Source of the DNA: Rhodovulum steppense
GTDB taxonomy: Bacteria > Pseudomonadota > Alphaproteobacteria > Rhodobacterales > Rhodobacteraceae
Reading direction: 5' to 3'
DNA: 64,000 nt
NCBI RefSeq assembly: GCF_004339675.1
Contig: NZ_SLVM01000018.1
Span: 1-64,000, forward strand
Both the position numbers and the translations under genes were made by a program. Positions within the stretch are counted from its first letter, which is position 1. Every line of letters starts with the position of its first letter. Of this stretch, positions 24,850-51,468 are shown in pieces. The notes under the pieces are model-generated. The model worked only from the letters and a program-made list of their open reading frames with translations. It had not been told where the DNA came from and ran no database searches.

Positions 24850-24933
24850 GCCCGAGTGGCGGAATGGTAGACGCAGGGGATTCAAAATCCTCCGCCGCAA
24901 GGCGTGCGAGTTCGACTCTCGCCTCGGGCACCA
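24850..24933 (+). tRNA. tRNA-Leu (anticodon CAA)
   Basis: An 84-nt cloverleaf with acceptor strand GCCCGAG (24850-24856) pairing with CTCGGGC (24923-24929), discriminator A and an encoded CCA (24931-24933). The D-arm region GTGGCGGAATGGTAGACGC, the anticodon loop TTCAAAA (anticodon CAA, reading UUG) and the T-loop GTTCGACTC are typical, and the long variable arm identifies a class II leucine tRNA. No integrase or att-like duplication lies next to it. Confidence 0.95.
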
Positions 24934-48596: not shown

Positions 48597-49370
48597 TCAC
48601 AGCGCGGTCCAGCCGCCATCGACGCTGATCGTCGTGCCCGTGATCTGGGCCGCCGCGTCCGAACACAGGAAGACGGTGGTTCCCCCGATCTGCTCGACCG
48701 TGGCGAACTGTTTGGACGGCTGGCGGGCCAGCATCACCTCGCGGATCACGCGGTCACGGTCCATGCCATGCGCCTTCATCTGGTCGGGGATCTGCGCCTC
48801 GACCAGCGGGGTCAGCACATAGCCCGGGCAGATCGCGTTGCAGGTGATCGCTTCCTCGGCGGTTTCCAGCGCCACGGTCTTGGTCAGCCCGACCACCCCA
48901 TGCTTGGCCGCGACATAGGCGGATTTGTAGGGGCTGGCCGTCAGCCCATGCGCCGAGGCGATGTTGACGATCCGCCCCCAGCCCGCCGCCCGCATCATCG
49001 GCAGCGCGGCCGCCGTGGTGTGAAACGCGGAGGACAGGTTGATCGCGATGATCGCGTCCCATTTCTCGACCGGGAACTGATCCACCGGCGCGACATGCTG
49101 GATCCCGGCATTGTTCACCAGGATATCGCAGGCCCCTGCCTCGGCGATCAGCGCGCGGCAGGCGTCGGCGCTGGACAGATCGGCCTTGATGTAGCGCACG
49201 CTGACCCCGTGTTCCTGCGTCATGTCGGCGGCCAGCGCGTGATCCTCGTCGCGGTCGGTGAACGAGTTCAGCACCACATCCGCCCCGGCCCGGGCCAGTT
49301 CCTGCGCGATGCCAAGCCCGATCCCCGAATTGGAGCCGGTCACGATGGCGGTCTTTCCGGAAAGCGTCAT
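48597..49370 (-). CDS. bdhA: 3-hydroxybutyrate dehydrogenase
   Basis: NAD-dependent short-chain dehydrogenase interconverting 3-hydroxybutyrate and acetoacetate, linked to PHB turnover. The 257-aa protein has TGSNSGIGLG (residues 11-20), NNAG, and the Ser139-Tyr152-Lys156 triad (IASAHG, AYVAAK). DRDRVIREVMLARQPSKQFATVEQIG in the C-terminal part is typical of bacterial BdhA (given in parts). It lies downstream of the RNA element at 49460-49535, which may control it. Confidence 0.9.
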   Translation of the reverse strand: MTLSGKTAIVTGSNSGIGLGIAQELARAGADVVLNSFTDRDEDHALAADMTQEHGVSVRYIKADLSSADACRALIAEAGACDILVNNAGIQHVAPVDQFPVEKWDAIIAINLSSAFHTTAAALPMMRAAGWGRIVNIASAHGLTASPYKSAYVAAKHGVVGLTKTVALETAEEAITCNAICPGYVLTPLVEAQIPDQMKAHGMDRDRVIREVMLARQPSKQFATVEQIGGTTVFLCSDAAAQITGTTISVDGGWTAL

Positions 49371-49459: not shown

Positions 49460-49488
49460 AAAAAAGACGCCCGCACAGGGCGGGCGTC
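49460..49488 (-). terminator. Intrinsic terminator with six-base U-run
   Basis: GACGCCCGC (49466-49474) and GCGGGCGTC (49480-49488) form a perfect 9-bp stem with a 5-base loop; on the minus strand it is followed by TTTTTT (49465-49460). This is a textbook Rho-independent terminator, pointing leftward, although no protein gene ends here on that strand. Confidence 0.85.
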
Positions 49489-49535
49489 AAGTTATTGAGG
49501 CAGGTTTCATACAGGCAAGAAACCTATCGAGCAGT
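49460..49535 (-). ncRNA. Candidate small RNA (about 76 nt) or attenuated leader of bdhA
   Basis: Between a promoter at 49542-49570 and the terminator at 49460-49488 lies a 76-nt transcript with no reading frame. Its 5' half holds a second perfect hairpin, AGGTTTC/GAAACCT (49519-49525 with 49502-49508) with the 10-nt loop TTGCCTGTAT. Promoter, stem-loop, single-stranded linker (CCTCAATAACTT) and terminator are the layout of a trans-acting sRNA. The loop carries pyrimidine-rich CCTG, which could pair with ribosome-binding sites. Because bdhA starts 90 nt beyond the terminator on the same strand, premature termination controlling bdhA is the alternative. No known family recognised. Confidence 0.55.
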
Positions 49536-49541
49536 AACCTC

Positions 49542-49570
49542 TGTATACGCAATCCGCCGCCGGTGGCCAA
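49542..49570 (-). promoter_or_regulatory. Promoter of the candidate RNA (TTGGCC, 17 bp, TATACA)
   Basis: On the minus strand TTGGCC (49570-49565) and TATACA (49547-49542) stand exactly 17 bp apart. The -10 matches consensus at five of six bases, including the key first two and, unusually for this GC-rich genome, a run of TA steps. It places the transcription start near 49535. Confidence 0.6.
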
Positions 49571-49579
49571 GCTAAAAGT

Positions 49580-49608
49580 TTGAAAAATCGGGCGCTCATG
49601 CCTAAGCT
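49580..49608 (+). promoter_or_regulatory. Possible promoter of the YejA-like gene (TTGAAA, 17 bp, TAAGCT)
   Basis: TTGAAA (49580-49585) and TAAGCT (49603-49608) with a 17-bp spacer, about 43 nt upstream of the start at 49651. It lies back-to-back with the leftward promoter at 49542-49570. Confidence 0.4.
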
Positions 49609-49650: not shown

Positions 49651-51468
49651 ATGAGACAGAAGAATCCCCTCCGCGCGCGCATCGCGGTGGCTGCGGCGTT
49701 GCTGTTCGGCATGGCCGGATTCGGGCAGGCCGAGCCCGCCCATGGCATCGCTATGTATGGCGCGCCCGCGCTTCCACCGGATTTTGTGTCGCTGCCCTAT
49801 GTGAACCCCGACGCGCCCCGGGGCGGACGCATCGTTCTGGGCGAAACCGGGGGCTTTGACAGCCTCAATCCGTTCATCCTGAAGGGCAACGCCCCCTGGG
49901 CGCTGCGCAGCCTTGGCTACGAGACCCTGATGGGCCGGTCCTGGGACGAACCCTTCACGCTTTACGGGCTTCTGGCCGAATCGGTCGAGACCGGCCCGGA
50001 TCGCGACTGGGTCGAATTCACCCTGCGCGAAGGCGCGCGCTTCTCGGATGGCAGCCCGGTCACGGTCGAGGATGTGCTATGGTCGTTCAGCGTGCTGGGC
50101 GAACAGGGCCACCCGCGCTATCGCAGCGCCTGGGAAAAGGTCGCGACGGCCGAGGCGACGGGGCCGCGCAGTGTGCGCTTCACCTTCACCACCGCCGACC
50201 GCGAATTGCCACTGATCCTGGGCCTGCGCCCGGTGCTGAAAAAGGCGCAGTGGGAGGGGCGCGATTTCGCGCAAAGCGGGCTGGAGGCGCCGATCGGGTC
50301 AGGCCCCTATGTCATCGCCGGGTTCGAGCCGGGCCGGTTCGTCCTGGTGCGCCGCAACCCCGACTGGTGGGGGCGCGATCTGGCGCTGAACCGGGGCCAG
50401 CACAATTTCGACGAGATCCGCATCGAGTTCTATGCCGATGCGGGCGTGCTGTTCGAGGCGTTCCGGGGCGGCGCAATCGACATCTACCGCGAATCGAGCG
50501 CGGCGCGCTGGCAAAGCGCCTATGACTTCCCCGCCATCGCCACGGGGCGGATCGTGAAAGCCGAGATCCCGCATGCGCGGCCCACCGGCATCAGCGGGCT
50601 GGTGATGAATGGCCGCCGCCCGGTCTTTGCCGACTGGCGGGTGCGCGACGCGATGCTGCATGCCTTCGATTTCGAGTTCATCAATGGCGTGCTGACCGGC
50701 GGCACCCAGCCGCGCATCGCGTCCTATTTCTCGAATTCCGAGCTGGGCATGGGACCGGGCCCCGCCGAGGGCCGCGTGCGCGCGTTGCTGGCGCCCTTTG
50801 CCGACGAGCTGCTGCCCGGCGCGCTGGAGGGCTATGCGCTGCCCGTCTCGGACGGGCGGCCCTCGAACCGGCAGAACCTGCGCATGGCCTTTGCCCGGCT
50901 GGAAGACGCCGGCTGGCGCGTGGGCGATGACGGGGTGCTGCGCGATGCCGACGGCCGGCCCTTCACCTTCGAGATCCTCTTGCGCCAGGGCGCGGCCGAG
51001 AGCCAGAAGATCGTCGACATCTTTGCCGAGGGGCTGAAACGGCTGGGCATCGCGGTGCGCATCAGCACGGTCGACAACGCGCAATATACCGAACGCACCG
51101 ACGCCTATGATTTCGACATGGCGTTCTACACGGTCGGGCTGTCGCTGTCGCCCGGCAACGAACAGCGGCTGTACTGGGGGGCGGAGGGGGTCACGCGACC
51201 CGGCACGCGCAACTGGATGGGGCTGGCCAGCCCCGCCGCCGAGGCGATGATCGAGGCGCTGCTGACCTCGGAAACGCATGAGGAATTCGTCGCGGCCACC
51301 CGCGCGCTGGACCGGGTGCTGACGACCGGGCGGCATGTGATCCCGGTCTGGTATGCGCCCAGTTCGCTGATTGCCCACCGCGCCACGCTGCGCTATCCGG
51401 AAACGATACCGATATACGGGGATTGGATCGGTTTTCTCCCCGATATCTGGTGGTCCGAGAGGGAGTGA
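49651..51468 (+). CDS. Extracellular solute-binding protein, family 5 (YejA-like)
   Basis: Periplasmic peptide-binding protein of 605 aa for an ABC importer. Signal peptide about residues 1-27 (ending GFGQA), then HGIAMYGAPALPPDF and PRGGRIVLGETGGFDSLNPF as in YejA, the binding protein for microcin C-type peptides. The C-terminal domain with YWGAEGVTRPGTRNW and HVIPVWYAPSS is typical. Its permease and ATPase genes do not follow within the window. A tiny lipoprotein gene comes 3 nt later. Confidence 0.88.
   Translation: MRQKNPLRARIAVAAALLFGMAGFGQAEPAHGIAMYGAPALPPDFVSLPYVNPDAPRGGRIVLGETGGFDSLNPFILKGNAPWALRSLGYETLMGRSWDEPFTLYGLLAESVETGPDRDWVEFTLREGARFSDGSPVTVEDVLWSFSVLGEQGHPRYRSAWEKVATAEATGPRSVRFTFTTADRELPLILGLRPVLKKAQWEGRDFAQSGLEAPIGSGPYVIAGFEPGRFVLVRRNPDWWGRDLALNRGQHNFDEIRIEFYADAGVLFEAFRGGAIDIYRESSAARWQSAYDFPAIATGRIVKAEIPHARPTGISGLVMNGRRPVFADWRVRDAMLHAFDFEFINGVLTGGTQPRIASYFSNSELGMGPGPAEGRVRALLAPFADELLPGALEGYALPVSDGRPSNRQNLRMAFARLEDAGWRVGDDGVLRDADGRPFTFEILLRQGAAESQKIVDIFAEGLKRLGIAVRISTVDNAQYTERTDAYDFDMAFYTVGLSLSPGNEQRLYWGAEGVTRPGTRNWMGLASPAAEAMIEALLTSETHEEFVAATRALDRVLTTGRHVIPVWYAPSSLIAHRATLRYPETIPIYGDWIGFLPDIWWSERE

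Follow-up and report, generated by a model that had tools for sequence, protein, structure and literature searches.

The intergenic region between bdhA and a divergently transcribed solute-binding protein gene in Rhodovulum steppense raises the question of whether it encodes a regulatory RNA and, if so, whether this RNA acts on the adjacent genes or on a target elsewhere in the genome. We followed up a preliminary description of this region within a 64,000-nucleotide stretch of contig NZ_SLVM01000018.1 (hereafter the window). The small RNA (sRNA) is real and very strongly conserved, and it is most likely of a kind that has already been described in one relative.

A 76-nt RNA gene on the minus strand

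Read on the minus strand from 49535 down to 49460, the region holds an RNA gene composed of a promoter, a hairpin, a linker and a terminator (Table 1), and this part of the preliminary description is confirmed. A re-reading of the letters also gave the same numbers as before: 17-bp promoter spacing, a 7-bp stem, a 10-nt loop, six U and a length of 76 nt. The stem of the hairpin, AGGUUUC/GAAACCU, extends to 8 bp when a U-G pair is included, and it encloses the loop UUGCCUGUAU. The linker GCCUCAAUAACUU then leads to the terminator, GACGCCCGC-CCUGU-GCGGGCGUC, which was detected by a terminator scan and has a 9-bp stem. The RNA folds with -27.7 kcal/mol compared with a mean of -14.2 kcal/mol for its shuffles, none of the 200 being as good (z -4.8, computed on an input stretch shifted by one base).

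Table 1. Features of the sRNA locus and its neighbours (positions in the window).
Feature	Position	Strand	Basis and remarks
bdhA, 3-hydroxybutyrate dehydrogenase	48597..49370	-	TIGR01963, 378 bits vs cut-off 307; neighbour, not part of the element
sRNA gene, StsR-like, 76 nt	49460..49535	-	predicted start A 49535, end 49460; sequence, fold, conservation
Intrinsic terminator stem-loop	49466..49488	-	terminator scan; two-sided changes at 6/9 pairs; followed by six U, 49465-49460
Putative pairing segment UGCCUGUAUGAAACCUG, RNA nt 19-35	49501..49517	-	perfect 17-nt complement of the mraZ/dcw leader
Hairpin 1	49502..49525	-	stems 49525-49519 and 49508-49502; 10-nt loop 49518-49509
5' tail ACUGCUCGAU, 10 nt	49526..49535	-	invariant in 37/37 loci; possible second dcw-leader contact
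Predicted RpoHI/RpoHII-type promoter	49542..49570	-	TTG 49570-49568, N20, TAT 49547-49545
Family-5 solute-binding protein gene, divergent	49651..51468	+	PF00496, 217 bits

Upstream of the predicted start (A 49535) we found a -35-like TTGGCC (49570-49565), a 17-nt spacer and TATACA (49547-49542). A scan for sigma-70 promoters between 48500 and 50500 returned none, and the sigma-70 reading was dropped. In the numbering that Dufour et al. use (PMC3441632), the arrangement TTG-N20-TAT has its TTG at -36 to -34 and an A at -12, and these are the positions that their passages on the subject give as the RpoHI/RpoHII signature. The corresponding pattern TTG-N19..21-TA[TC] is present upstream of 41 of the 43 loci compared below, as against 2.6% of shuffled 40-nt upstream stretches, and both promoter elements occupy their exact positions in 38 of the 43. 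Judged by its letters, the sRNA promoter is RpoHI/RpoHII-like. The shape of a promoter is weak evidence by itself. The same rule recovers the RpoHI/RpoHII-dependent sRNA SorY no more than 2 nt from its mapped start, and it also yields unrelated matches, the combined promoter-plus-terminator scan being so unspecific that it gave four other hits besides the RNA at 1,404-1,484 kb of the R. sphaeroides genome. We further observed an upstream element, CAAACTTTTAGCTTGG (49556-49608), which is exact in 30 of the 43 loci and overlaps both the -35 of the sRNA and, by eye, a plus-strand TTGAAA-N17-TAAGCT promoter-like site of the divergent transporter gene, so the promoters of the sRNA and of the transporter may be coupled.

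Conservation across the family

A BLAST search with the promoter-plus-RNA stretch gave one match in each of 37 genomes of the family (Rhodobacteraceae; the window's genome is one of them). The 24 genomes from other families of Alphaproteobacteria gave no match. When the draw was widened to 394 family genomes, 384 had a match (345 of 347 among those of good quality), and 11 had two, these being second copies or leader sites, unsorted. All 37 aligned loci fit the core pattern, and from the predicted start onwards 37 of the first 39 alignment columns are invariant. Such invariance exceeds the needs of a single 17-bp contact and thus points to further targets or to proteins. Covariation, proposed earlier as a check, supports one of the two stems: the terminator retains its pairing through compensating changes (two-sided changes at six of the nine pairs, with 22 such cells vs 4.7 in shuffles, over 31 distinct rows), whereas the hairpin does not vary in the alignment, so that covariation says nothing about it either way.

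Six genomes chosen for PufX hits were added to the 37 aligned loci, giving the 43 loci used for the promoter and for the neighbouring genes. A hidden peptide (MKPASIT-like) was rejected as an explanation, since its frame is closed within nine codons in 29 of these 43 loci and is therefore not conserved. Among named genomes, our scan listed four stretches, two from Gemmobacter, one from an uncultured Rhodobacterales and one from Cereibacter johrii, R. sphaeroides not being in this list. In a named replicon of Paracoccus ferrooxidans the 39-nt core lies between bdhA and the transporter gene; since the Paracoccus plasmid table contains no RNA genes whatsoever, its silence on the RNA says nothing about annotation there.

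Complementarity to the leader of the cell-division genes

The candidate segment of the sRNA that faces the mraZ leader is UGCCUGUAUGAA. In the window's genome the 17-mer of the pairing segment (with Y at one place) occurs at exactly two sites, the RNA gene itself (C18:49501-49517) and the mraZ leader (C28:36962-36978). It is likewise found twice in the R. sphaeroides genome, again in the RNA gene and in the mraZ leader, and the reversed pattern was found in neither of these two genomes. Across the 394 family genomes, 381 contain the 17-mer at least once and 137 contain it twice. We read 34 of its loci: 24 were the RNA gene, and the 10 other sites all precede mraZ by 180-249 nt on its own strand (distances taken by hand).

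The leaders themselves gave a consistent picture. We located mraZ in 55 of the 61 genomes (36 of 37 from the family and 19 of 24 others) and counted as a site any stretch with at most 3 mismatches in 18. Such a site is present in 29 of the 36 family leaders and in none of the 19 outgroup leaders, and the reversed core is present in none of the 55. Several family leaders without a scored site retain much of it: 14 identical letters in two genomes (G005 and G014), 13 in a third (G019) and a version with four mismatches in a fourth (G029), while one leader starts inside the site at a contig end and keeps 16 identical letters (G034) and another is too short for the site to be scored (G032). In the mraZ leader of one further genome (G023) the site was not found.

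In R. sphaeroides, where the leader has been studied, the complementarity covers 17 of 18 positions with one mismatch, and its longest uninterrupted run is 12 nt. Perfect complements of 12-14 nt to UpsM, an sRNA made from this leader, abound: 360 kb of R. sphaeroides DNA contain 33, namely the sRNA and 32 others. The 12-nt run therefore proves nothing alone, and the weight lies on the other genomes and on the conservation. Unconstrained duplex energies with UpsM were uninformative, being no better for the sRNA (-58.3) than for its shuffles (mean -52, lowest -70.5) and reaching -83.2 for a terminator-bearing stretch near 858 kb that is discussed below, and a fold model of UpsM with the site blocked did not clearly expose the RNase E cut. 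In its sequence, the sRNA seems made for pairing with the cell-division leader.

The invariant 5' tail could add a second contact. It can pair with the terminator stem of the leader (ATCGGGCAGT) or with a conserved CGAGCAG motif (in mraZ leaders such as L074, L082 and L083), and with the leader terminator the full 10-nt pairing, G-U pairs included, is seen in many leaders and is broken in others. Upstream of the dcw cluster we also noted tandem hairpins formed by CCAGGGAGGAGGAGG-type repeats (L082, minus strand, ~3410-3210; contig C28, window's genome), an arrangement similar to that of the CcsR array, which in R. sphaeroides adjoins a DUF1127 gene.

Relation to StsR

The passages on UpsM in PMC5089854 describe a 206-nt sRNA derived from the dcw leader. 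Its cleavage by RNase E, which leaves a 130-nt 3' fragment, takes place during heat or singlet-oxygen stress and in stationary phase, and besides the enzyme itself it requires Hfq and either RpoHI or RpoHII; the cut has been mapped to 694,720, according to the mapping given in PMC6238624. StsR is described, in the parts of PMC8307010, PMC8625941 and PMC11354728 that deal with it, as a 72-nt RNA driven by RpoHI/RpoHII; its reported binding partners are Hfq, UpsM and the dcw leader, and it promotes the cleavage. We searched for the sRNA in R. sphaeroides genome G090, which we took as strain 2.4.1 given that the published ends of SorX and SorY agree with it within a few bases, even though the scan of named genomes did not list R. 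sphaeroides. This genome carries the sRNA core at 1,444 kb, in a copy of 68 nt followed by up to eight U, and its complementary leader site, 694,690-694,706, ends 14 nt upstream of the RNase E cut (6 nt when reckoned by fragment length).

The sRNA is most likely an orthologue of StsR and thus a trans-acting stress sRNA. It has its own promoter and its own terminator and a predicted length of 76 nt, compared with the 72 nt that the StsR passages of PMC8307010 give; its promoter matches the RpoHI/RpoHII type, and its complement in UpsM and the dcw leader lies close to where RNase E cuts. The comparison was made with the published description of StsR rather than with its letters, and on those terms every feature that a sequence can display appears to be present. 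A full-text literature search with the letters of the RNA gave no match. For rpoE, a known StsR target with pairing from 10 nt after the start codon, the window's genome offers a weak 11-nt match with three G-U pairs, in a gene whose start codon is uncertain.

The former name of StsR, RSs0827, fits the map less well. RSs names rise with position at four published points (RSs0682, RSs1543, RSs1624 and RSs2461), and by hand interpolation RSs0827 would lie at ~853 kb, whereas the sRNA at 1,444 kb would have an index of ~1370, not 827. Since RSs is a naming index and no biological trait, with a scheme that we had to infer, we call the identity most likely and do not state it as a fact. The mismatch could mean that the sRNA is a second RpoH-driven sRNA with the same action on the dcw leader, StsR being encoded elsewhere, and a strong terminator at ~858 kb, in a stretch that matches UpsM nt 13-23 perfectly over 11 nt, could be taken in the same sense. 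We consider this unlikely, because only one candidate, of 49 nt with a weak hairpin, emerged from 830-910 kb in a promoter-plus-terminator scan, because the sRNA already agrees with StsR in all that its sequence can tell, and because two such RNAs for one target would be less parsimonious. If they were nevertheless distinct, the mechanism would be the same.

Other candidates were examined and rejected. Taken as StsR, the 858-kb stretch itself (G090 C4 ~858,050-858,140, plus strand, with eight T after the terminator and, by eye, downstream of a TrmH-like gene) has no RpoH-type promoter, despite its match to the 5' region of UpsM. Reading RSs0827 as RSP_0827 would place it at an estimated ~2,577 kb, where looser scans of 2,548-2,608 kb recovered only SorX and a stricter one nothing. 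For UdsE/RSs2778, the 3' end is listed as unknown, not as a terminator.

Neighbouring genes

The gene downstream of the RNA is a genuine 3-hydroxybutyrate dehydrogenase gene (TIGR01963), and it had been suggested that the RNA could be a conditional terminator or leader attenuator of a bdhA-patatin operon. In the window the RNA precedes bdhA by 89 nt on the same strand and ends in a strong terminator, both of which would suit such a role. Within the ~1.5 kb examined on each side (a few loci being shorter), however, bdhA lies downstream on the same strand in only 33 of the 43 loci, with 37-959 nt in between, whereas none of the 43 lacks the RNA; moreover, the consensus contains no alternative antiterminator fold, the part that does not vary is the region of the hairpin rather than an alternative to the terminator, and a partner in trans exists. 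An attenuator is thus very improbable. Adjacency is all that connects the RNA with 3-hydroxybutyrate metabolism, and this adjacency is incidental. The constant neighbour is the divergent family-5 solute-binding gene, which adjoins the RNA in 42 of the 43 loci, mostly ~114 nt from the start (range 54-174). Of the two functions first put forward, the trans-acting sRNA is supported, by its own promoter and terminator, the family-wide conservation and a conserved partner for pairing at another locus, and the attenuator is not.

Proposed function

For the StsR orthologue that we favour, the following chain of events can be proposed. The RpoHI/RpoHII-type promoter, judging from its letters and from the orthology, would fire under heat, singlet oxygen or in stationary phase. 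The 76-nt RNA, probably together with Hfq, would open its hairpin and use nt 19-35 to pair with the mraZ/dcw operon's 5' leader and with the UpsM made from it, as the conserved complementarity suggests. Since the RNase E cut mapped in R. sphaeroides follows closely after the site, the pairing would promote cleavage by RNase E, and, as published for StsR, it would lower dcw mRNA and slow division. One could go further and consider that the RNA and the dcw leader form a near-frozen, family-wide switch tying heat and stationary-phase stress to cell division, in which the 5' tail would touch the leader terminator or an inner hairpin as a second contact and directly alter readthrough into dcw, perhaps through an RNA distinct from StsR in R. 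sphaeroides; this extended version seems to us rather unlikely.

What the comparison adds is the reach of the RNA and its target across the family. It suggests that most of the family uses a circuit that was described in a single species. In place of a guess about PHB metabolism, there is now a connection between stress sigma factors and cell division that can be tested. We found no description of this family-wide reach in the literature searched, outside of which the original StsR paper (gkab491) lies, and we claim no priority.

Comparison with known RNAs

At the gathering thresholds Rfam contains no match to the sRNA, either in the window, where the sole match is a tRNA gene at 24850-24930 (plus strand), or in 17 of its loci. 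No Rfam model catches the sRNA, and it is thus easily missed in annotation. The earlier statement that it was previously unannotated stands with respect to Rfam, but R. sphaeroides has the same RNA, which is most likely the published StsR. The scores obtained for MmgR/suhB, the Leu leader, BjrC1505 and others all fall below their thresholds. Membership in the MmgR/suhB (alpha-r8) family, which controls PHB granules, is scarcely credible: the match to RF00519 in length, layout and covariance, next to a PHB gene, reaches 20.8 bits against a gathering score of 41, unrelated families do no worse (Leu leader 28.4, BjrC1505 25.2), and the match stems largely from the terminator.

The sRNA and MmgR/suhB share a length of ~77 nt and the order hairpin, linker, terminator, and their loops differ. 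SorY has the same promoter spacing and a different RNA body. An RNA of P. denitrificans, 'intergenic 134', is reported in the relevant part of PMC5107571 to be 84 nt long, confirmed by RT-PCR and conserved in Rhodobacteraceae, and to share its genetic context with a putative sRNA of R. sphaeroides; going by this description, and not by its sequence, it may be the same RNA. The UpsM/dcw 5' leader, as presented in the UpsM passages of PMC5089854, is a proposed partner and not a relative, its site being conserved in the family. StsR, finally, differs from the sRNA in an old index number that does not fit the map position, and it resembles it as an orphan sRNA of 72-76 nt with an RpoHI/RpoHII-type promoter and complementarity next to the RNase E cut.
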